In this document: piece after piece, positions 10,645 through 40,497 of the stretch
Layout of the letters: the number at the start of each line of letters is the position of its first letter
Position numbering within the stretch: the stretch's first letter is position 1
Origin: Chloroflexota bacterium
GTDB taxonomy: Bacteria > Chloroflexota > Dehalococcoidia > Lucifugimonadales > UBA2985
Reading direction: 5' to 3'
Length of the DNA: 40,836 bases
Assembly: GCA_028877205.1 (NCBI GenBank)
Contig: JAPPHY010000020.1
Span: forward strand, 1-40,836
The notes under the pieces: generated by a model
The model's database searches: none
Told to the model about the DNA's origin: nothing
What the model saw: the letters and a program-made list of their open reading frames with translations, nothing else
Position numbers and translations under genes: made by a program

Positions 10645-13146
10645 ATGATGAGATTGCGAAGATCCAATCTGCTGGCCCTGCTGGCGCTGGCGGTCATTGT
10701 GGTGGCGCTTGTCGCCTGTGGGGATGATACGACGCCCACCGGCGGAGAGACCCAGGTCGGCTCCGACTCCTCGGAAACCGGGGCGACGCCGAGCGGCGAC
10801 AAACCCGCTGAAGGGGAGACCGCCGCCGATGGGCAACGTTCATCCACCACCGAGACGTCGGCTGCGGCGGAAGAAGGGACCATCGCGTTCCGTTCAGACC
10901 GGGACGGGAAGTACAGAGTGTACGTAATGGATGCGGACGGTTCCGGCGCGAGGCGGTGGACAGATTACCCGGGGTACCACTGGTTCAAAGGACGGTCGCC
11001 GGATGGACGGCGCATCGCGTTCACTTCAGAACAGGACGGGAAAGTCGACGTGTCAGTGGTGAATGAGGACGGTTCCGACGAGACACTGCTGACCGATGAC
11101 CCAGGGGAGGACTGGTTCGGGGGATGGTCGCCGGACGGACGGCGCATTGGGTTCGATTCGGACCGGGACGGGAACTGGGAATTATACGTGATGAACGCGG
11201 ACGGCTCCGGCGTCACCCGGCTGACAGATGACCTCGGGGAGGACTCGTTTGGAGGATGGTCCCCGGACGGACAGCGTATTGCGTTCGATTCAGACCGGAG
11301 CGGGAACTTCGAAGTATACGTGATGAACGCGGACGGCTCCGGCGTAACGCGGCTGACGGATGACCCGGGGAAGGACTACTTCGGAGGATGGTCGCCGGAC
11401 GGACGCCGCATTGCGTTCGATTCAGACCGAGACGGGAACTGGGAAGTATACGTGATGAACGCGGACGGCTCCGGCATCACGCGATTGACGGATGACCCGG
11501 GGAAGGACTACTTCGGAGGATGGTCGCCGGACGGACGCCACATTGCGTTCGATTCAGACCGAGACGGCAACTGGGAAGTATACGGGATGAACGCGGACGG
11601 TTCCGGCGTGACGCGGCTGACGGATGACCCTGGAAGGGATAGGTTCGCAGGATGGTTATCCATCTCTCTCGATGCGCAGGCTGCCGTTTCTCAAGACGCC
11701 ATGACACCTGACGGGTTCAATTCCGCCAGCGCCGGGGCACAGGGCAGTTCACGCACGAGTGCGGAGGAGTACCGGGCAGTTTGTGGGCTGATGGACGCCC
11801 AGGCCAACGCAACTTTGGCTACAGAGGAGCTGAGCTTTGCGGAGACCGCGGCGGTCCTGGAGGATCTCATCAAGCAGAGTGAGTCCGTTGAAGTGCCGGA
11901 AGTGCTTGCCGACTGGATGGAAGTCCGGTTGACCTTTCTAAGAGACTTGAAAAGGGTGTCTGAGGATGGACCGGGAGAGGATGCCTCTGAGGATGAACTG
12001 AACGAATACGGTGAAAGCACCGTGCTTCCGATAACCATACGGTATGCCGAAGAGGAGTACAGAGTCTTCAGAGACATGAGCCGGGACACCATTACAGGCT
12101 TGTTCAAGGCCGGCTGCGTCGAGGAGGCAACGCTCAGGTGGATCTTCGATGAAGCGGAAATGGAGCAGCTGCGGCTGGGAGAGGCAACCGAATTCTCGTC
12201 CGTCAGCGCTGGTGAGATCCACACCTGCGGGGTGAAGACCGACGGCGCGGTCGAGTGCTGGGGCGACACTACCTTTGGACAGACCAAGCCTCCCGGCGGT
12301 GCGTACGTCTCCGTCAGCGCCGGGAGTTACCACGTCTGCGGGGTGAAGACCGACGGCGCGGTCGAGTGCTGGGGCGACACTACCTTTGGACAGACCAAGC
12401 CTCCCGGCGGTGCGTACGTCTCCGTCAGCGCCGGGAGTTACCACGTCTGCGGGGTGAAGACCGACGGCTCGGTCGCATGCTGGGGCATGAACGACGAGGG
12501 GCAAGCCACGCCGCCCGACGGCGCATTCGTCTCCGTGAGTGCCGGGCACAACCACGCCTGCGGGGTGAAAACCGACGGCTCGGTCGCATGCTGGGGCTCC
12601 AACGAAACTGGGACGGGGGAGGTCGCCGGACAGGCCACGCCGCCCGACGGCGAATTCGTCTCCGTTGGCTCCGGGACTAACTACTCTTGCGGACTGAGAA
12701 CCGACGGCTCGGTCGAGTGCTGGGGAGTGAACCCCGATTACAGAACGCCCAGGGGTGTGCTCACCTCGCTCAGCGCCGGTTCTGCCCACACCTGCGGCCT
12801 GAAAGCCGACGGCTCGGTCGCGTGCGCGGGCTGGAACGATTATGGAGAAGCCACTCCGCCCCTGAACGGCGAGTTCGTCTCAGTGAGCGCCGGTGGGAAC
12901 CACACCTGCGGGGTGAGAACCGGCGGAACTGTGGAGTGCTGGGGCTCGAACGATCTTTATGGTGGGGAAGTCGTCGGACAGGCCACTCCCCCCGGTGGCG
13001 CATTCGCTTCCGTCAGCGCCGGGGATGTACACACCTGCGGCGTGAGGACCGACGGCTCGGTCGAATGCTGGGGCGATGACCACAGCGGAAAGGCCACGCC
13101 GCTCGGAGAGTGGAATCTGTATGATCTCGCTCAGATATATGGGTGA
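10645..13146 (+). CDS. Lipoprotein with TolB-like propeller, helical domain and eight RCC1 repeats
   Basis: An 833-residue lipoprotein. I chose the ATG at 10645 because its N terminus (MMRLRRSNLLALLAL, ending LVACGDD) aligns without gaps to the signal peptides of the genes at 7865 and 13260; an in-frame ATG at 10576 overlapping the previous stop would add 23 residues ahead of the signal. Residues about 78-338 form six PD40 units ([17 protein letters not shown]), the number expected for a TolB six-bladed propeller. About 369-512 is the helical domain (EEYRAVCGL, EVPEVLADW, KAGC) seen also at 7320 and 13260. About 515-822 is an RCC1 block with eight repeats, one more than the usual seven; two of them are coded by an exact 111-bp tandem duplication. 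A surface binding role is inferred; no enzyme motif is seen. Confidence 0.87.
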   Translation: MMRLRRSNLLALLALAVIVVALVACGDDTTPTGGETQVGSDSSETGATPSGDKPAEGETAADGQRSSTTETSAAAEEGTIAFRSDRDGKYRVYVMDADGSGARRWTDYPGYHWFKGRSPDGRRIAFTSEQDGKVDVSVVNEDGSDETLLTDDPGEDWFGGWSPDGRRIGFDSDRDGNWELYVMNADGSGVTRLTDDLGEDSFGGWSPDGQRIAFDSDRSGNFEVYVMNADGSGVTRLTDDPGKDYFGGWSPDGRRIAFDSDRDGNWEVYVMNADGSGITRLTDDPGKDYFGGWSPDGRHIAFDSDRDGNWEVYGMNADGSGVTRLTDDPGRDRFAGWLSISLDAQAAVSQDAMTPDGFNSASAGAQGSSRTSAEEYRAVCGLMDAQANATLATEELSFAETAAVLEDLIKQSESVEVPEVLADWMEVRLTFLRDLKRVSEDGPGEDASEDELNEYGESTVLPITIRYAEEEYRVFRDMSRDTITGLFKAGCVEEATLRWIFDEAEMEQLRLGEATEFSSVSAGEIHTCGVKTDGAVECWGDTTFGQTKPPGGAYVSVSAGSYHVCGVKTDGAVECWGDTTFGQTKPPGGAYVSVSAGSYHVCGVKTDGSVACWGMNDEGQATPPDGAFVSVSAGHNHACGVKTDGSVACWGSNETGTGEVAGQATPPDGEFVSVGSGTNYSCGLRTDGSVECWGVNPDYRTPRGVLTSLSAGSAHTCGLKADGSVACAGWNDYGEATPPLNGEFVSVSAGGNHTCGVRTGGTVECWGSNDLYGGEVVGQATPPGGAFASVSAGDVHTCGVRTDGSVECWGDDHSGKATPLGEWNLYDLAQIYG
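12225..12466 (+). repeat. Exact 111-bp tandem duplication of one RCC1 blade
   Basis: Bases 12225-12335 recur without change at 12336-12446, and identity continues about 20 bases into the next unit. The unit is exactly 37 codons, one RCC1 blade, so the frame is kept. Identity includes silent positions, which indicates a very recent duplication or an assembly artefact. Confidence 0.85.
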
Positions 13147-17704: not shown

Positions 17705-19057
17705 ATGAAATCTCTCCGGCGATTGGGACTAGTTGTGTCCAAACTGCTCTGCTTGGTGGTCCTTACATCGCTGGTCGCGGTCCTGGCCTGCTCCAAGGAA
17801 GGCCCGGCTCCGAGTCCGCAGCCCACAGCGACGGCTGTGCAAGCGCCCACTGCCACCGGCATGCCGGACCCCTCGGCCACCGCCACCCGCCCGCCTCCGG
17901 TCGCTACACCCGTCCCCGTGTCCGATGGAGACAGGGCTGTGCTTGAGGCGCTCTACAACGCCACCGATGGTCCAAACTGGAGGAACAACGCTAACTGGCT
18001 GAGCGACGCGCCGTTAGATGCATGGCACGGTGTGCTTACTGACGATGGCCGCGTCATCGGGCTGCTATTGGACGACAACAAGTTGAGCGGCGAGTTTCCT
18101 CCGGACCTGGGTAAACTCGACAACCTGTGGTATCTGGAACTCTCGCTCAATCAGTTGAGCGGGTGCATACCCAGTGAATTGCGAGACGTGCCCTTTAGTG
18201 AACTCGGCGAGCTCGGTCTGCTCTTCTGCGACGACACAGGTACACAGGCTGCCGCGCCGACGCCGAAACTAACCAAACTCACCGACAACTCCTCAACGGA
18301 ATGGGCTTCCGCATGGTCTCCCGACGGAAGCAGACTCGCGTTCTCCTCCAACCGCGACGGCGATCTTGAGGTATACGTGATGAACGCCGACGGTTCCGGC
18401 GTCATTCAACTCACCGACAACTCCGACCGTGACGGGGGTCCCGCATGGTCTCCCAACGGCATCAGGATCGCATTCGCCTCAGACCGTGACGGGGACTTTG
18501 AGATATACGTGATGAACGCCGACGGTTCCGGCGTCACCAAACTCACCGACAACTCCGCGTGGGACGCGGACCTCGCATGGTCTCCCGACGGAAGCATGGT
18601 CGCGTTCGCCTCAGACCGGGACGGGGACTTTGAGATATACGTGATGAACGCCGACGGTTCCGGCGTCACTCAGCTCACTGACAGCTCCGCATGGGAAGGG
18701 AGTCCCTCATGGTCTCCCGACGGAAGCAGGGTCGCGTTCGCCTCAGACCGTGACGGGGATTCCGCGATATACGTGATGGGCCGCGACGGCTCCGGCGTCA
18801 CTCAGCTCACCGACAACTCCGACCGTGACGGGGCTCCCGCATGGTCGCCCGACGGAAGCAGGATCGCGTTCACCTCCTTCCGCAGTGGGTTTAGTGAGAT
18901 ATACACAATGAACCCTGACGGCTCCGGCGTCACCGAACTCAACGACGAGTTCGAGTGGGAAGAGAACCCCGCATGGTCGCCCGACGGAAGCAGACTCGCG
19001 TTCTCCTCCGAGCGAGACGGGGACTTTGAGATATACGTGATGGCCGTAGAGAACTAG
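17705..19057 (+). CDS. Lipoprotein with LRR domain and six-bladed TolB-like propeller
   Basis: A 450-residue lipoprotein. The ATG at 17705 follows an AAGGGA site. The signal peptide ends AVLACSK, then a Pro/Thr/Ala linker to about residue 75. Residues about 78-175 are a leucine-rich repeat domain opening LYNATDGPNW, the same cap seen in the giant protein at the left edge, with two or three LRR units. Residues about 190-450 are PD40 repeats with six WSPDG/WSPNG motifs ([11 protein letters not shown]), the expected number for a complete TolB-type propeller; the last blade ends right at the C terminus. These domains bind peptides or glycans. It is a small relative of the 1-4067 protein made from the same LRR and PD40 modules. 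It ends the lipoprotein cluster. Confidence 0.87.
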   Translation: MKSLRRLGLVVSKLLCLVVLTSLVAVLACSKEGPAPSPQPTATAVQAPTATGMPDPSATATRPPPVATPVPVSDGDRAVLEALYNATDGPNWRNNANWLSDAPLDAWHGVLTDDGRVIGLLLDDNKLSGEFPPDLGKLDNLWYLELSLNQLSGCIPSELRDVPFSELGELGLLFCDDTGTQAAAPTPKLTKLTDNSSTEWASAWSPDGSRLAFSSNRDGDLEVYVMNADGSGVIQLTDNSDRDGGPAWSPNGIRIAFASDRDGDFEIYVMNADGSGVTKLTDNSAWDADLAWSPDGSMVAFASDRDGDFEIYVMNADGSGVTQLTDSSAWEGSPSWSPDGSRVAFASDRDGDSAIYVMGRDGSGVTQLTDNSDRDGAPAWSPDGSRIAFTSFRSGFSEIYTMNPDGSGVTELNDEFEWEENPAWSPDGSRLAFSSERDGDFEIYVMAVEN

Positions 19058-33974: not shown

Positions 33975-35132
33975 TTAAGCGGTCGTAGGCTCCGGCCGCA
34001 TCAACAGGGCGGAGCAGCTCGGCGCCACCACGTGGTCCACCGACACCTTGCCCCTGCCGTCGTACCCGGCGCGGAAGGCGTACTCCACCTTCGCGCCCCA
34101 GGGCACCCGGCCGCCGACGCGCACCGCGCCGCCCCTGGCAGTGCCGTCCCGGCCACGGGCGCCGTGCACCACCATCCCGCTGCGCTCACCCTTCTTCCAG
34201 CCCAGGACCTTCATGGCAACGGGCATCACCCGCTGCGGGTCTTGGCTGCGCCGGAACAGCGCCCCGTGCAGCTTTCTGATGACCACGGCGGACGGGCTGC
34301 GCTGGCCGTTCATGATCTGGGAGAGGTGACCGGAGCTGATGCCCGCCCGCCTCGCGACCTCGTTCTGGCTGACGTTTAGCGCGTCCATCTGCTCCCAGAT
34401 GAACTGGCGGTCGATGTCGGGGCACTGGGCGGAAGCGACCTTCGCACGCCCTCCAAGCACAGCCTCGACCCGAGCCTGAAGCTTCACGCCCATGCTCCTG
34501 TGCCCGCGTGACACCTGGGACAGGTACCCGGCGGACACGCCCACCTTCTCGGCCAGCTCCCGCATGGTGATGCCGAGGGCGCGGGCGGTCTCCCGGATGA
34601 AGCTGCTGTCCGTCCCTTCGACCACCTCGCCCTGACGGTTGGCGAGCTTGGCCGGAGCGACCCTGGCCGCCACCCCAAGAGCCGATTCGATGCTGGCCTG
34701 CACCTTGACGCCCATGTTGCGGCGGCCACGGGCCACCTGGGTGAGGTAGGAGTAGCTCACCCCCGACCGGTCGGAGAGTTCCCGCATGGTGTAGCCCATC
34801 GTCCGTGCCTGCTCCCGGATGTAGCTGCTCTCCGAATTGACCTCGCCGCGCTGTCGGTAGACGAAGCCCTGTCCTGGGACCTCGCCCAGCACAGCCATCG
34901 CCTTCTCCCGCAGGTTGGGGGTCCAGGGCTTCTTGCCCGTGCCGACCTGGGAGAGGTGGCTGGCGCTCACGCCCATCAGGGCCGCAAGCTCCCTCATGGT
35001 GAGGCCCTTCTTCCTGGCCACCGCCCTGAGTTCGCTCTCAGGCTTGCCCATGGCCTCAACGGGCGTTGCCGCATCCGTCGTTGTCTCCGTCGTGTTCTGC
35101 CGATTGGTCGTTGGTGTGGTTGCCGTCGTCAT
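33975..35132 (-). CDS. Regulator with four tandem HTH (XRE-type) domains
   Basis: A 385-residue protein. I chose the ATG at 35132 because AAAGGAG lies about eight bases upstream; the frame is open for 57 more codons without support. After a Thr-rich N terminus there are four helix-turn-helix units: residues 34-83 (KKGLTMRELAALMGVSASHL), 102-153 (GYTMRELSDRSGVSYSYLTQ), 175-227 (GITMRELAEKVGVSAGYLSQ) and 242-293 (LNVSQNEVARRAGISSGHLS). Units 2 and 3 are the closest pair, including the following NMGVKVQA/SMGVKLQA stretch, so the protein grew by internal duplication. The C-terminal 90 residues form a basic, beta-rich tail. XRE proteins normally have one HTH; four in one chain suggest binding to several adjacent operators or cooperative looping. 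It is transcribed away from the neighbouring HTH/coiled-coil gene at 37105. Confidence 0.85.
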   Translation of the reverse strand: MTTATTPTTNRQNTTETTTDAATPVEAMGKPESELRAVARKKGLTMRELAALMGVSASHLSQVGTGKKPWTPNLREKAMAVLGEVPGQGFVYRQRGEVNSESSYIREQARTMGYTMRELSDRSGVSYSYLTQVARGRRNMGVKVQASIESALGVAARVAPAKLANRQGEVVEGTDSSFIRETARALGITMRELAEKVGVSAGYLSQVSRGHRSMGVKLQARVEAVLGGRAKVASAQCPDIDRQFIWEQMDALNVSQNEVARRAGISSGHLSQIMNGQRSPSAVVIRKLHGALFRRSQDPQRVMPVAMKVLGWKKGERSGMVVHGARGRDGTARGGAVRVGGRVPWGAKVEYAFRAGYDGRGKVSVDHVVAPSCSALLMRPEPTTA

Positions 35133-35157
35133 GTCGCTTCTCCTTTCAATGAAGAAG

Positions 35158-35293
35158 CGGGACGGCCGCCACCCCGTGGGGCGGAGACAGTCCCGCTCGA
35201 ATTGATGTCCCGGCAGCCGGGACCGTCTCCGTGGGTTGGTTGCTGGCAAAGAGAAGGGCCACCCTTCCTCGCGCGGAGGAAGAAGCGGCCCTT
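35158..35293 (-). promoter_or_regulatory. Structured leader of the multi-HTH gene with competing stems
   Basis: Within 160 bp upstream of the gene: a two-tier hairpin (AAGGGCC 35254-35260 with GGCCCTT 35287-35293; inner CTTCCTC/GAGGAAG with a GCGCG loop); a perfect GTCCCGG-CAG-CCGGGAC hairpin (35207-35223) enclosed by GGAGAC 35183-35188 and GTCTCC 35225-35230; and CGGGAC 35158-35163, which can pair with GTCCCG 35190-35195. The last stem and the 35207-35223 stem use interchangeable arms, so alternative folds are possible, as in attenuators. Confidence 0.5.
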
Positions 35294-35385
35294 TGCTCGC
35301 CAACTGTTATGGGGGCCTTGTGTGCGAGAGGCCGGGGCGTGAAGCCGTCAATGCCGACTCCGGCGCCCTTGGTCTCGCCTACTAA

Positions 35386-35400: not shown

Positions 35401-35594
35401 GTGCACCTCCTTGATATTGATGTTGCTGACCCGCGCGGCATCCGGGGCGCGGGTTGTGTGTGTGATGGGTTCGTTTGACGCAAGACGCACTTCGCCCACG
35501 GTCGGATGCCGGACGCGGGGACGAAGTGGGGTGAGAAAAACGCAGCTCGTCCAGGGTCATATCACGGGGATGCGGACCGGGGAGCTGCTGTGAG

Positions 35595-36055
35595 AGGAAA
35601 TGCGTCCGGCCCGCAGATTTCAATCCGAGACCGGCGCGGTGAGAGCGACGCAGCCCTACAGAGTCATCGCAGGACGGCGTGCGTTGAAGCTGCGACCCAA
35701 CCGCGTGACGGTTGCGCCGCAGGCATGAGGAACTGGCCGGGGTGCACGCACTCCGACCCGGGATCTCCGTACTCGCTACGGTGGTGTCCCGACTTCCGAG
35801 ACGGCATCGGGGGAGCAACGGCTCGACCCCTCGACCGGCTCACGCATCGGGAAGGCGCTTGTCCCTCCGGGGCGACCATCGGGAGAGCGAGGCTCAATCC
35901 TTCCGGTCAGACCCCTGGGCGGTTGTTCGGAGAGCGAAGGCTCGATCCTATGCAACCGGTCCCGGATTCAGAGACGGGAACCCTCCAGGTTTCTCGGCAC
36001 GAAACGCTGGAAAAAGCCAGAAACTGCGTAAATTATCGCCCGGTCGGACGGGCAA
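35595..36055 (+). ncRNA. Candidate structured RNA, copy A
   Basis: This roughly 460-bp stretch has no convincing coding frame but shares ordered blocks and helices with 37785-38345. Clearest element: a 33-base hairpin at 35690-35722 (CTGCG, 4-base bulge, AACCG, loop CGTGA, CGGTT, 4-base bulge, CGCAG), followed 8 bases later by AACTGGCC at 35731. Copy B has the same lengths but a different inner stem. Further on are three bulged hairpins with GAGC/GCTC cores and a 3' RA bulge (35809-35830, 35882-35900, 35929-35948). The 3' end has CCAG-GTTTC/GAAAC-CTGG (35985-36010), then GGAAAAAGCCAG and ATTATC. Strand is inferred from G-T pairs that fit only plus-strand RNA. No Rfam family is recognised. Confidence 0.5.
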
Positions 36056-36152
36056 ATGGAAGGCTTCGAAAGGGGTTTCGGGCCAGCCCAACGTGAATCA
36101 CTCGCTCCGAGTTTGCGCCCGTTTAGCCGCGCTTTAGCAGCCGCCGGAAACC

Positions 36153-36176
36153 GGCCCCGGAGCCGGCTCCGGGGCC
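36153..36176 (-). terminator. Perfect 12-bp inverted repeat at the end of the HTH/coiled-coil gene
   Basis: GGCCCCGGAGCC at 36153-36164 is followed at once by its complement GGCTCCGGGGCC to 36176, touching the stop codon of the minus-strand gene (36176-36178). It would form a very stable hairpin just beyond that gene. No T-run follows, so it could be a Rho-independent-like stop or mRNA end protector. Confidence 0.45.
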
Positions 36177-37105
36177 TACTTCCACCACAGCCCCACGGTG
36201 AGGACCCGGCGCACCCAGCGCAGCAGCTCCCACCTTGCCAGGGACCTCCTCGTGTCCGCCAGCGCCGTCCACCGCCAGGTGGTCTGGCCACTGCGCCCGA
36301 ACCCCCTGAGCGCCTGCTTCTCCGGCGGCAGGGTCAGCCCGTGCTCCTCCAGCATCGCCAGTTCCAGCACGAGCAGCCGCTCATGCGTCGTGAGCCACGA
36401 CAGGCTCTTTCCCTCACTGGGGTGACCTGTCCGCAGGCTGCGCCACTCCTCGATGAGCGGCCAGGCTTTGCCGTAGACCTCCCGGTCGTCGTCGGCAGGC
36501 TTCACCGTGACCACCTCGGGCTCCTTGCGCCGCTCCCTTAAGGGCTTTTTGGGGCGCAGGCCCGCCACCGGAGGTGCGGCCCCGGTCTCCGACCGGCCCG
36601 CCTTCTTCTCACCCGCGTCCTCCGCTTGGGTCCCTTCCTCGCCGCCGCCCTCGGCATCGGACTTGCCGGCCGCCGCAATGCGCAACTTGTCCAGTCCGTC
36701 CCGGAGCTCCTTCCCCAGCGCCCCCATGCCGGATTCCAACGCGGCCACGCGTTCCTCGACCATTCCGACCGACTCCCTGAGCCGCTTCACCTCCGGGCTG
36801 TCGCCCGCGCTCGACAGCCGTTCGATGGCGTCGCCCATGCGTCCCGTGATCTCGCCGGTCTCCTCGGCCTTGACCAGCGTGCGGTAGGCAACGCCCAGCA
36901 GTTCCGCAGCCTCCATCCGGCCCTCCTCCCGCACCAGCTCCCGCAGGAACCCCCTCAACCTGTGCCGCCGCATCCGCTCCTTGTCCGCGTCGTCACCGTC
37001 CCCGACTTCGCTCGTCAGGGTTTCATCGTCCAACACGTCGGCGTCCTGGTTCCCGCCATCCTGGGTCTCCTCAACCCGCGTGCCGTTCAACTCTGCCTCG
37101 TTCAT
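36176..37105 (-). CDS. HTH and coiled-coil protein, unrecognised
   Basis: A 309-residue protein with ATG at 37105 and GAGGAGG about eight bases upstream. Residues 1-45 are acidic. Residues about 48-98 look like a helix-turn-helix (LRGFLRELVREEGRMEAAEL, LLGVAYRTLVKAEETGEI, RMGDAIERLSS). About 105-145 is a coiled coil (VKRLRESVGMVEERVAALES). A charged linker follows (Glu/Gly/Lys-rich), then a C-terminal helical domain (WPLIEEWRSLRTGH, HERLLVLELAMLEEHGLTLP) ending in a Trp-rich segment, VRRVLTVGLWWK, which may contact membranes. It probably binds DNA; the twin palindromes at 37239 and 37357 lie just upstream of it and could be its operators. I do not know the family. Confidence 0.75.
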   Translation of the reverse strand: MNEAELNGTRVEETQDGGNQDADVLDDETLTSEVGDGDDADKERMRRHRLRGFLRELVREEGRMEAAELLGVAYRTLVKAEETGEITGRMGDAIERLSSAGDSPEVKRLRESVGMVEERVAALESGMGALGKELRDGLDKLRIAAAGKSDAEGGGEEGTQAEDAGEKKAGRSETGAAPPVAGLRPKKPLRERRKEPEVVTVKPADDDREVYGKAWPLIEEWRSLRTGHPSEGKSLSWLTTHERLLVLELAMLEEHGLTLPPEKQALRGFGRSGQTTWRWTALADTRRSLARWELLRWVRRVLTVGLWWK

Positions 37106-37238
37106 GCGTCAAACCTCCTCATGTTCATGTCCGATAGGGGCGTCCTGTAGAGGCCATCACGGCCCGGTTTAGGCCTCGTTCCCCAAATCGCTCGCTCCGA
37201 TTTAGCAGCGATGCGCTCCGCTGTTCCGCTTTTCCGAC

Positions 37239-37370
37239 TTGCATTTCTGCAACTTCCGCCCAAATCGGGTGAACCCGCCCTTATCTCGAAGTGCTCGCAA
37301 CAACGGCCCCACACCCCTCCATTCCAACCTGATTCAGCTACGAACTCACCACCGACTTGCATTTATGCAA
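37239..37370. promoter_or_regulatory. Twin TTGCA-N4-TGCAA palindromes, candidate operators
   Basis: CGACTTGCATTTCTGCAAC (palindrome core 37239-37252) and CGACTTGCATTTATGCAAC (core 37357-37370) share 18 of 19 bases and stand 118 bp apart, in the gap between the minus-strand HTH gene (start 37105) and the start of the duplicated small-gene segment. The 118-bp spacing is close to 11 helical turns, which would place both on one face of the DNA. The twofold symmetry is typical of dimeric regulator sites. Confidence 0.5.
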
Positions 37371-37520
37371 CCGGCGCATTTCCTTGTACACGGGTAGTAC
37401 ATCACATCCGGCCTTTTGGGATGGAGACCTCGTGAGGGAGCATCCCGCGAGCGCCCCCCTCACGGACCGTGTTTTTTCGCCCCTCGGCTCCCCAGACTCA
37501 ATGGCATTCAGACCGACATT

Positions 37521-37562
37521 GATAGCCCTTTTGGGGCTCACGCGAGCCCGGTGAAGAGAGTG
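37521..37562 (+). promoter_or_regulatory. Duplicated leader with mutually exclusive hairpins, copy 1
   Basis: AGCCC 37524-37528 can pair with GGGCT 37534-37538; alternatively GGGCTC 37534-37539 pairs with GAGCCC 37544-37549. Both stems use the same central strand. The arrangement and the surrounding words (CCGACATTGA, GAAGAGA, then ATGAACGACA) recur at 39021-39067 upstream of the intact gene. Confidence 0.5.
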
Positions 37563-37793
37563 ATGAACGACAGGAGCAGACAGAGCGGACAACGGATATC
37601 CGAGGAGGGATTCTCCGAATGCGGCGTGGTCAGGGTCATCTCCAGGCTTGCCCCCGACGCCGAGGGCCGGCTGCGCCGCCTCTTCATCCTGCCGCTCAGG
37701 CCCACGGACGAGGAGAGGCAGGCGGAAGTCCCAGAAGGACCCGCCCTCGGATCACCGACTCGTGGACAACCACCTGGAGGCAGAAGCCCAATG
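37563..37793 (+). pseudogene. Decayed copy of the small gene at 39068
   Basis: The frame from ATG 37563 reads MNDRSRQSGQRISEEGFSEC and RVISRLAPDAEGRLRRLFIL, aligning with MNDKRR, EEDFSEFGEV and RVISRPAPDAEDRLLRLFTL in the intact gene. Near 37735 an extra four bases shift the frame; the expected end (VDNHLEAEA) is found in another frame, and its TGA has become CAA. No YhcG-type gene follows; candidate RNA B lies there instead. The duplication also covers about 250 bp upstream. Confidence 0.6.
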
Positions 37794-38345
37794 CGCCCGC
37801 TATCGGGGTGGGTCAATTCCAACTTAGCATTGGCATCCGAACGTCATCTGTCTCCGGCGAGGCGGTCAACCCTCAGCCAGGACCGCACCCCATCAACTGC
37901 GTGCGGAAGCTGCGGTGCGGCTGCGTTCCAGCCATCCCGCAGACGTGCTGAACTGGCCAAAGCGACAGGCGCACTTTGGCCAGTTTGCCGGGGACGATGC
38001 GCTAACACGTCGTCCCCCTGGTCAGACTGCGAGGCGATCAACCCCAGCCGTCAGACCGGTGCCCAACGGAGGGAGCGATCAACGCCGAACGTCAGGCAGA
38101 TGTCCTTCGAGTGGAGGACCAACGTCAAACTCCAACCCGCTGGACTGGACCGAGGACGGAGGCCCCTGCGTCAACTCCGTCGATCCGGCCCGCGCTGGTT
38201 GCGGAGGACCAACGTCAAACTCCGCATCGCCAGCATTCCCTCTTGGGCGAAGCCCGTGCAACAGGGATCACGCACCCAGGTTTCTGTGGTCGGAAACCTT
38301 GGAGAAAGCCAAACAGTGAGGTCATTATCACCGATCTGCGAGACC
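37785..38345 (+). ncRNA. Candidate structured RNA, copy B
   Basis: Counterpart of the element at 35595-36055. The hairpin at 37910-37942 is CTGCG, GTGC, GGCTG, loop CGTTC, CAGCC, ATCC, CGCAG: the same 5-4-5-5-5-4-5 layout as copy A with the inner stem fully changed but still paired. AACTGGCC follows at 37951 with the same 8-base spacing and here forms a 12-bp stem (AACTGGCCAAAG/CTTTGGCCAGTT). A GGGGACGA/TCGTCCCC stem follows, then several bulged hairpins, two of which share an exact 21-base word (38113-38133, 38203-38223). The 3' hairpin is AGGTTTC/GAAACCT (38278-38299), followed by GGAGAAAGCCAA and ATTATC. A long plus-strand open frame runs through it but has no protein-like signal. Confidence 0.5.
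38113..38223 (+). repeat. Exact 21-bp direct repeat, 90 bp apart
   Basis: The word GGAGGACC-AACGTCAAA-CTCC occurs at 38113-38133 and 38203-38223. Each copy folds as GGAG/CTCC enclosing GAC/GTC with an AAA bulge on the 3' side. A diverged unit (GGAGGCC...GTCAACTCC) lies between them at about 38158-38178. Confidence 0.7.
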
Positions 38346-38930
38346 AAGAAGACCCCATGCGTGCCCCCACCCCGGATATTGCTCCAGCGCGACCTTGGGC
38401 AACGTATTGCTCCACAACTACCGCCACAACCACCTCTGCGTGAGCACCCGCCACACCCTGGACGCAACCTCGCTTCTGCCCCGCGCTCTCTGCGTGTCGT
38501 AAAGCGCCGCGTGGTGCCAGCTGACCGGGCCTCATGGGGTACATGTGCTCCAGGTCTTTGCTGTCCTAGATGCCGTGTTGGGTCGTCTCTATGGCAGTTT
38601 CCTGCTTCCCCGCAAACTCGTTTCAGCTTTGACTTCCACCAGGTCCGCGTTTCTTGCGATGTCTCGCCCGGTGTAACGCACCCCCACCTCAAGCGCATCT
38701 TTTGGCCGCTTTTGTCATCGGGCCGCCGATTTGGGCCGCGTCATGCACCCCCACCTCAAGCCTGCTTTTGTCATTGCCGACCGAACTCCACCCTTTCAAC
38801 AGATTGCTCGCCGACCACCTCCTGTAGAGGGCGATTTGCCCCTGATTCAGCTACGAAATCACGACTCAGGCCACTTCGTCACCAAACTCCATTTCCTGTA
38901 CACCCCCAATACTGCGCGAAGAGGCTTGTT
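38346..38930. other. No gene seen; short direct repeats
   Basis: About 585 bp without a convincing gene on either strand. The word GCACCCCCACCTCAAGC occurs exactly at 38678-38694 and 38745-38761, and each is followed within 30 bases by GCTTTTGTCAT. The last 60 bp (CTGATTCAGCTACGAA, CATTTCCTGTACAC) belong to the duplicated segment that has its other copy near 37341-37395. Confidence 0.5.
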
Positions 38931-39020
38931 CGTTGGCGACCTTCCGTGGCGCCACCACGCGTGAGGTCTTTTTCGGCGTTCGAGTTGTTCACACTCTCTG
39001 GCGAGGGCTGCGATCCGCCG

Positions 39021-39067
39021 ACATTGACAGCCCGGTGCGGGCTCACGAGAGCCCGGCGAAGAGAACG
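39021..39067 (+). promoter_or_regulatory. Duplicated leader with mutually exclusive hairpins, copy 2
   Basis: AGCCCG 39029-39034 pairs with CGGGCT 39038-39043, or CGGGCTC 39038-39044 pairs with GAGCCCG 39049-39055 around an ACGA loop. The second stem ends 12 bases before the ATG at 39068 and just before GAAGAGA, the likely ribosome site, so the choice of stem could expose or crowd that site. Copy 1 at 37521 keeps both options despite base changes. Confidence 0.5.
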
Positions 39068-39292
39068 ATGAACGACAAGAGGAGACCGAAAGTGCGACGG
39101 ATGCCCGAAGAGGACTTCTCGGAGTTCGGGGAGGTGAGGGTCATCTCCAGGCCCGCACCCGACGCCGAGGACCGGCTGCTCCGTCTCTTCACCCTGCTGC
39201 TCAGGCCCTCGGCCGGCGACGGGCAAGCGGAGTTCGAGAAGGACGCGCTCCCGGACGTCCAAGTGGACAACCACTTGGAGGAGGAAGCCTGA
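39068..39292 (+). CDS. Small charged protein, partner gene of the YhcG-type nuclease
   Basis: A 74-residue protein that I do not recognise: a basic N terminus (MNDKRRPKVRRM), an acidic segment EEDFSEFGEVRVIS, a helical RPAPDAEDRLLRLFTLLLRP and an acidic tail ending VDNHLEEEA. The purine-rich GGCGAAGAGAACG precedes the ATG at 39068. Its TGA overlaps the ATG of the nuclease gene by one base (TGATG), a coupled start. The decayed copy at 37563 shows the same protein pattern, with changes concentrated outside the two conserved segments, supporting that it is a real gene. A role as a regulator or partner of the nuclease is inferred from coupling only. Confidence 0.65.
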   Translation: MNDKRRPKVRRMPEEDFSEFGEVRVISRPAPDAEDRLLRLFTLLLRPSAGDGQAEFEKDALPDVQVDNHLEEEA

Positions 39293-40497
39293 TGCCATCC
39301 GAGATGTCCCCCAACCGCAATCAGCCATCACTGAGGCGTTCAACCCTCAGTCACGACGCCCCGTACGAGGCTGTCTTCGGAGACGTGTCGAGAATCATCG
39401 ACGCGGCCAGAGACTCTGCCGCTCGGTCGGTGAACGCCGCCATGACCACCGCGTACTGGCTGATAGGACGTCGCATCGTCGAGTTCGAGCAGTCGGGAGA
39501 GGAGCGGGCCGAGTACGGGGCGGCGCTCATCGAGAGACTGGCTGAGGACCTGACCGGAAGGTTCGGTCGGGGCTTCTCCCTCCAGGGCATCTACAAGATG
39601 CGTCTCTTCTACCTCTCGTTCCCGTCTGACCGGATTCTCCCGACAGTGTCGGGAAAATCGGCTTCATCCCATCGACAGAGGATTCTCTCGACGGCGTCGG
39701 GAGAATTCATGACCGCATCGGACGGCGTAGGCTTCGAAGACCTGCTGTCAGCCTTCCCGTTGCCCTGGTCGGCCTATGTGCGGCTGCTGTCGGTCAGGGA
39801 CGAGCAGGCCCGCGAGTTCTACGAGACGGAGGCGCTGAGGGGAGGGTGGTCGGTCCGTCAGCTAGACCGACAGATCGCCTCCCAGTTCTACGAGCGCACC
39901 GCCCTGTCCAAGAACAAGGCTGCCATGCTCACGTCGGGACGGAAGCCCAATGCCGAAGACGCCGTGCTGCCCCAGGAGCAGATCAAGGACCCCTTCGTCC
40001 TGGAGTTCCTCGGCCTCAAGGACGAGTACTCCGAGAGCGATCTTGAAGACGCGCTCATCCGCCATCTGGAGACCTTCCTCATGGAAATGGGAGACGACTT
40101 CTGCTTCATGGGCAGGCAGAGGCGGCTGCGCATCGGCAACAGGTGGTACAGGGTTGACCTGCTGTTCTATCACCGGGGACTGCGGTGCCTCGTGGTCATC
40201 GACCTGAAGATCGGTGCGTTCAGCCACGCCGACGCCGGGCAGATGCACCTCTACCTGAACTACGCGCGGGAGCACTGGGTCCGCGAGGGCGAGAACCCGC
40301 CCGTGGGCCTCATCCTGTGCTCCGAGAAGGATGAGTCTTTGGCGCGGTACGCCCTCGACGGCCTGCCGAACAACGTGATGGCCGGGGAGTACCGCATCAG
40401 CCTGCCCGACGAGGAGCTGCTGGCGACGGAGATCGACCGCACGAGACAGGCGATGGAGGTGCGCGGCGCACTCTCAGGGAACGGCCAGGAGGAGTGA
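39292..40497 (+). CDS. YhcG/DUF1016-family PD-(D/E)XK nuclease domain protein
   Basis: A 401-residue protein of the YhcG (DUF1016) family. The N-terminal helical domain spans residues about 22-170 (AAMTTAYWLIGRRIVEFEQS, YGAALIERLAEDLTGRFGRG, FSLQGIYKMRLFYLSFP); the nuclease domain spans about 225-395 with KDPFVLEFLGL, YSESDLEDALIRHLETFL, RIGNRWYRVDLLFYHRGLRC and LVVIDLKIGAFSHADAGQMH, where VDLLF and IDLK supply the D and D/E-x-K residues. Between the domains (about 39627-39710) is a variable insert coded by two similar DNA words containing GGATTCTC and GTCGGGA. The family is found in accessory and defence regions; its substrate is not established. It is coupled to the small gene upstream. Confidence 0.9.
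   Translation: MPSEMSPNRNQPSLRRSTLSHDAPYEAVFGDVSRIIDAARDSAARSVNAAMTTAYWLIGRRIVEFEQSGEERAEYGAALIERLAEDLTGRFGRGFSLQGIYKMRLFYLSFPSDRILPTVSGKSASSHRQRILSTASGEFMTASDGVGFEDLLSAFPLPWSAYVRLLSVRDEQAREFYETEALRGGWSVRQLDRQIASQFYERTALSKNKAAMLTSGRKPNAEDAVLPQEQIKDPFVLEFLGLKDEYSESDLEDALIRHLETFLMEMGDDFCFMGRQRRLRIGNRWYRVDLLFYHRGLRCLVVIDLKIGAFSHADAGQMHLYLNYAREHWVREGENPPVGLILCSEKDESLARYALDGLPNNVMAGEYRISLPDEELLATEIDRTRQAMEVRGALSGNGQEE

Follow-up and report, generated by a model that had tools for sequence, protein, structure and literature searches.

A predicted family of structured, approximately 500-nt non-coding RNAs linked to an HTH gene in conjugative elements of Chloroflexota

Two diverged elements in the window (the whole 40,836-nt stretch of DNA analyzed here), copies A and B, are identified by comparative sequence analysis as genes of a previously unnamed family of structured non-coding RNAs of approximately 500 nt, residing in conjugative elements of Chloroflexota. 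That this is a genuine non-coding RNA gene is close to certain, and a functional tie to cl0, the HTH gene upstream of it, is probable. Our favored explanation, held with slightly better than even confidence, is that of an RNA family of integrative conjugative elements (ICEs) that has its own promoter, forms a cassette with cl0 and acts in trans with the Cl0 protein. The features discussed are listed in Table 1.

Table 1. Positions of the RNA copies, their structural elements and neighboring genes in the window
Feature	Position	Strand	Description
RNA copy A	35536..36026	-	About 490 nt, transcribed leftwards; promoter, terminator, covariation, fold
RNA copy B	37785..38318	-	Diverged type with GGAGUUUGACGUUGGUCCUCC modules; covariance-model match; 3′ boundary approximate
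Sigma-70-type promoter, copy A	36032..36061	-	TTCCAT (36061-36056), 18 nt, GATAAT (36037-36032)
-10 box GATAAT, copy B	38324..38329	-	Promoter alignment
Intrinsic terminator, copy A	35536..35589	-	GCAGCUC...GAGCUGC, then CGUUUUU; 486 nt from RNA start
5′ hairpin CCAGCGUUUC...GAAACCUGG	35985..36010	-	Conserved GGCUUUU before it; about 98% of cells paired in 88 sequences
Hairpin GGUUC...GAAUCC	35964..35982	-	Helix 3 of R1 alignment; loop GUCUCU (35975-35970)
Bulged-hairpin module 1	35921..35957	-	GGAUCGAGCCUUCGCUCUCC within outer stem; helices 1-2 of R1 alignment
Bulged-hairpin module 2	35874..35908	-	GGAUUGAGCCUCGCUCUCC within GACC/GGUC; sequence, fold
Bulged-hairpin module 3	35800..35839	-	GGGGUCGAGCCGUUGCUCCCC; sequence, fold
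33-nt hairpin, copy A	35690..35722	-	CUGCG/CGCAG outer stem; covariation in alignment A5
33-nt hairpin, copy B	37910..37942	-	Sequence; covariation in alignment A5
cl0	36176..37105	-	309 aa; Cro/Xre-like HTH (37-101), coiled coil, basic C-terminal helix; precedes RNA A in the same direction
Decayed cl0 C-terminus remnant	38454..38531	-	Just upstream of copy B; tblastn E 6.7e-5
cl1	33975..35303	-	Four tandem HTH_3 matches (Xre/HTH_3 repeats); downstream of RNA A, as in many island copies

Copies, homologues and database searches

The preliminary description of this DNA proposed two copies of a structured RNA of roughly 500 nt, and both copies are present together with the hairpins described in them. 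Its claims and expectations on size, structure, covariation, homologues, a conserved neighboring gene and the lack of a named family all stand, while its assignment to the plus strand does not. The grouping of A and B into one family is borne out by homologues in many genomes and by a single covariance model, R1, that retrieves both. This model of 111 positions was built mainly from other genomes, with the A segment included in its training set and B excluded. It yields 96 matches in 93 loci, among them A with 90.2 bits and B with 42.5 bits (E 6.7e-11); as B lay outside the training set, its match is independent.

Copy A has an 80% identical relative elsewhere in its genome, on a different contig, and relatives of 84-90% identity in two members of the order; copy B has a 79% identical relative in the same genome. 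Three loci from other genomes (L050, L051 and L152) repeat the arrangement of the window, with A-type and B-type RNAs approximately 2.2 kb apart and cl0 between them. The window is part of a 2.0-Mb genome, and close matches come from metagenome-assembled genomes of Dehalococcoidia/Chloroflexota, many of which, going by their isolate names, we take to originate from marine sponges. A protein-coding reading was rejected: no frame stays open across the homologues, and single-base insertions and deletions are abundant.

A search of the whole window, on both strands, against Rfam 15 (including ROOL, GOLLD, OLE and HEARO) gives no match at gathering thresholds, in agreement with the earlier statement that no named family fits. 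Among nine homologue loci searched at E<=1, the only Rfam match is a weak and unrelated one to ftsZ-DE, far below its gathering score. No description of the cl0-linked RNA family was found in the literature. Chloroflexi-1 RNA (RF01698), listed for Chloroflexus aggregans (PMC2864571), is likewise a candidate structured RNA of this phylum, and cmscan reports no match to it.

Transcribed strand and secondary structure

The RNA is very likely made from the minus strand. Promoter, terminator, the asymmetry between G.U and A.C pairs, and folding z-scores all point to this strand; the plus-strand RNA proposed earlier was rejected on the promoter, the terminator, the G.U bias and the fold z-scores of copy A. 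The promoter lies just beyond the plus-strand 3′ end of the element and reads leftwards into it. The motif ATTATC, previously read as part of the 3′ end of the RNA, is the reverse complement of the -10 box GATAAT and falls outside that end. In a position profile of 62 diverse loci, the -10 box (GATAAT, GATACT, GACACT or AATACT) is fixed at -12/-11, with a weaker -35 box 17-18 nt upstream of it. A promoter score of at least 7/12 is reached in 37 of 58 diverse loci, compared with at most 7 loci in 300 shuffles and 4 on the opposite strand. A strict single-sequence promoter scan of the window listed none.

The terminator feature of copy A recurs at 449-513 nt in five further loci (L036, L038, L041, L042 and L046). 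Scanning the transcript strand reveals terminators within 700 nt in 26 of 84 copies, and the search on copy B found none. The sequences support a sigma-70 promoter belonging to the RNA itself, and A-type copies are predicted to stop at the intrinsic terminator after approximately 490 nt.

Base-pair composition and folding bear on the same question. On the minus strand, the ratio of G.U to A.C pairs is 75:25 in alignment A3 (p 3e-7), 30:17 in A2 and 30:18 in A5, an asymmetry due in part to one bulge-shifted hairpin; outside this hairpin, the context-clean counts are close to equal. For copy A, the 491-nt minus strand has a better fold than any of its 100 shuffles (z -2.57; plus strand, z +0.76), and over 25 copies of 470 nt the mean z-score is -2.81 for the minus and -1.52 for the plus strand (p 0.002). 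For a 223-nt segment, both strands fold equally well.

The pairing of the RNA is well supported. Across 88 distinct rows of the R1 alignment, 87% of cells are paired and 17 of 23 pairs have changed on both sides, so that many pairs covary beyond those of the two hairpins first described. Cells changed on both sides number 121, compared with 33 +/- 4.7 after shuffling, in a null of shuffles rather than of trees that does not model the relatedness of the sequences. On each of the five measures, none of 500 shuffles reaches the observed value, and a shift of the partner by one to three columns at least halves the covariation score. Most covariation measures are also significant in an unguided MAFFT alignment (A2). 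When A and B types are combined in one MAFFT alignment, no covariation is significant against a tree-based null, probably because the number of hairpins differs between the types and leads to misalignment, which the covariance-model alignment resolved.

The 33-nt hairpin was originally noted for a constant outer and a changing inner stem, and the same pattern appears in 27 aligned homologues (alignment A5). Here, 24 cells have changed on both sides, compared with 11.1 in shuffles, and the covariation score of 0.310 drops to at most 0.135 once the partner is slid. The hairpin reported at the 3′ end, CCAGGTTTC/GAAACGCTGG followed by AAAGCC, proves nearly invariant across 88 distinct sequences. 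In copy A, the loop GUCUCU of the second hairpin can form a long-range pairing with AGGGAC (35866-35861). In a set from which copy A was left out, only 6 of 1000 permutations reach the observed mean for pairing between the second-hairpin loop and the conserved AGGGA, and register-specific compensations occur, written on the plus strand as TTCCTTCG/CGAAGGAA and ATCCC/GGGAT. The predicted RNA core is characterized by this supported long-range pairing and by repeated stem-bulge-stem modules.

Another reading of the same hairpins, which we consider very unlikely, is that they act in the transferred DNA strand as a single-stranded DNA promoter, a primase start or an origin, with the RNA being incidental. 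The position in a conjugative element, next to genes for primase, SSB and Rad52, and the few non-Watson-Crick pairs in the alignment of the RNA 5′ core, are in keeping with such an element. Like Frpo-type leading-region single-stranded DNA promoters (PMC9849209), the element is structured, intergenic and close to establishment genes of a conjugative element. Unlike the Frpo type, however, it is framed by a conserved sigma-70 promoter of the double-stranded type and, in A-type copies, by a terminator on the same strand. The G.U bias on that strand indicates RNA pairing, and the RNA is retained in islands that carry no transfer genes within the stretch examined.

The cl0 gene and its linkage to the RNA

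The stop codon of cl0 typically lies 75-160 nt before the RNA start. In 393 genomes of the class, cl0 is present in 35 and the RNA in 28, all of which are among the 35 (Fisher p 1e-36); seven cl0-positive genomes have no covariance-model match, and none of the 358 cl0-negative genomes carries the RNA. With an iterated profile, the RNA element adjoins 45 of 61 copies of one neighboring gene. The preliminary description had pointed to HTH or nuclease neighbors: the HTH gene cl0 is the probable true partner, and the nuclease gene (DUF1016) is an incidental neighbor of copy B.

Searching 84,980 species with a DNA pattern for the 5′ hairpin, which does not depend on cl0, gives 50 places: 45 in Chloroflexota, 1 on a contig labeled Acidimicrobiia, and 4 chance matches lacking the RNA profile. 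For 39 of the 46 real RNAs found by this pattern alone, a cl0 match lies in the adjoining stretch. The contig labeled Acidimicrobiia (L136) carries both RNA and cl0 with scores matching those of the Chloroflexi contig L143 and is probably misbinned. Ten covariance-model matches above 36 bits in other classes of the phylum all have cl0 alongside, and weaker matches are without it. Protein searches of viral contigs, phages and plasmids give no cl0 match; the RNA pattern has no match in viral contigs and, in plasmids, only a chance-like 38-nt match in Streptomyces.

Linkage alone could account for the co-occurrence of RNA and cl0. A trans-acting RNA independent of Cl0 and merely linked to its gene, for example a homo-oligomeric ornate RNA, would resemble ROOL and GOLLD, which span several hundred nucleotides, are highly structured with pseudoknots, lie on mobile elements and have no known function (PMC12286853). 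The new RNA is likewise large, structured, pseudoknotted and mobile-element-borne, with up to 8 covariance-model matches per genome. We nevertheless judge this independence quite improbable, given the near-perfect linkage to cl0, which extends outside the class. No protein partner has been identified for ROOL, and both ROOL and GOLLD, found in phages, lie near tRNA islands rather than such a gene (PMC12286853), in contrast to an RNA of Chloroflexota conjugative elements with a fixed HTH partner gene. Given its ROOL/GOLLD-like size, complexity and mobile-element setting, and no Rfam match, we regard the RNA as a new family belonging to a general kind already known, whose unusual feature appears to be a constant candidate protein partner.

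Cl0 has no Pfam, NCBIfam, PHROG or PADLOC match. In its AlphaFold model (pLDDT 77), the HTH domain resembles Cro and HigA2 antitoxins (Z ~5.8), a coiled coil spans residues 104-148, and the C-terminal helical domain ends in an Arg-rich helix. The fold search gives no confident match beyond the Cro/HigA2-like HTH; Avd (4dwl), whose fold would be expected in the protein partner of a diversity-generating retroelement RNA, aligns over 88 residues with Z 6.1, a value shared by many other helical chains. The C-terminal 45 residues carry a net charge of +2 to +13 in 25 of 25 members. A DNA- or RNA-binding role of Cl0 is plausible.

Copy B stands beside a decayed cl0 remnant, and its relative on contig C13 adjoins a cl0 that contains four stops; the B-type copies of this genome may thus be relics. 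Upstream of cl0, two operator-like palindromes (CTTGCATTT[AC]TGCAAC) occupy 37238-37253 and 37356-37371 of the window, but only 10 of 70 cl0 genes have them upstream; the palindrome TTGCATTTATGCAA is found in only 10 of 70 loci. In 48 of 70 loci, a conserved motif (approximately AATC[CT]CTGTACACG..ATGACA[CT]CACA) lies upstream of cl0, 180-320 nt ahead of the point where the cl0 profile match begins. Its orientation is always opposite to that of cl0, and it hardly occurs anywhere else in the loci; in appearance it resembles a nic/oriT core or a strong operator.

Conjugative setting and possible function

On the transcript strand, cl0 and the RNA are followed in ICE copies by genes for a Zn-ribbon protein, cl5, a DnaG-like primase and Rad52, with genes for a Cas4/RecE-type nuclease, RadC, SSB and a DNA methyltransferase further along. 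A T4SS operon (VirB4-like, TrbL, PrgI) runs opposite to cl0. The ancestral setting is a conjugative element in which the RNA sits between the T4SS operon and the primase/Rad52/SSB/RadC operon, and these T4SS and DNA-processing genes point to an integrative conjugative element. No PF03432 relaxase was found in five genomes. In islands, the multi-HTH protein gene cl1 replaces the downstream operon, and the window copies sit in an island that also carries type I restriction and DUF1016 nuclease genes. The best weak NCBIfam match of the cl1 relative in L036 is the conjugal transfer regulator TrbA.

The main rival to a trans-acting RNA is a cis-acting leader or attenuator, in which the RNA would form the 5′ leader of the DNA-processing operon, with a terminator controlled through folding or through a bound protein. 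The RNA shares a strand with this operon, and the terminator positions of 449-513 nt compare with a first operon gene that, in ICE copies, starts approximately 450-560 nt from the RNA start. We consider the leader unlikely, as islands keep the RNA and cl0 while the next gene is cl1 or unrelated, often 0.65-1.5 kb away, and no alternative antiterminator helix has been identified. A leader calls for a constant downstream gene or operon; instead, the downstream side varies between ICEs and islands while the upstream cl0 is constant. The leader model leaves unexplained why it is cl0 rather than the downstream operon that remains with the RNA, and the retention of cl0 where that operon is replaced favors cl0 as the partner.

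For the favored explanation, in which RNA and upstream cl0 form a cassette, we infer an RNA that works in trans together with Cl0. The pseudoknotted core and the repeated bulged hairpins of the RNA would bind the protein, possibly by way of its basic C-terminal helix, and thereby scaffold, sequester or redirect it; such direct binding is a possibility we place somewhat below even. The resulting ribonucleoprotein may tune the divergent T4SS operon and the flanking DNA-processing operon (primase, Rad52, exonuclease, SSB, RadC), as a transfer or establishment switch of the element. Protein-sequestering small RNAs of the CsrB/RsmZ type carry repeated hairpins with GGA loops. By analogy, the repeated similar hairpins of the new RNA could bind several protein copies, although they are built as stem-bulge-stem modules instead of GGA loops. 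A dedicated ribonucleoprotein switch between maintenance and conjugative transfer, with an HTH regulator controlled by a pseudoknotted RNA bearing several protein-binding hairpins, is the most far-reaching version and a rather doubtful one. If true, it would represent RNA-based control of conjugation by means other than antisense RNA.

With this family, the few known ornate RNAs of mobile elements gain a large member supported by covariation. Its near-constant candidate protein partner, compared with none identified for ROOL (PMC12286853), makes the function of the RNA directly testable. It also opens a view on the control of conjugative elements in uncultured Chloroflexota, many of them from sponge microbiomes.

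Two further repeats occur in the window. A duplication of approximately 280 nt (37513-37794 and 39018-39295, 78% identical) contains a small ORF that starts with MND and shares a VRVISR stretch; one site lies past the 3′ end of RNA B and the other immediately precedes the DUF1016 nuclease gene. Distant parts of the window, at 654-1303, 10865-11656 and 18272-19043, share tandem repeats whose period is approximately 132 nt (44 codons).
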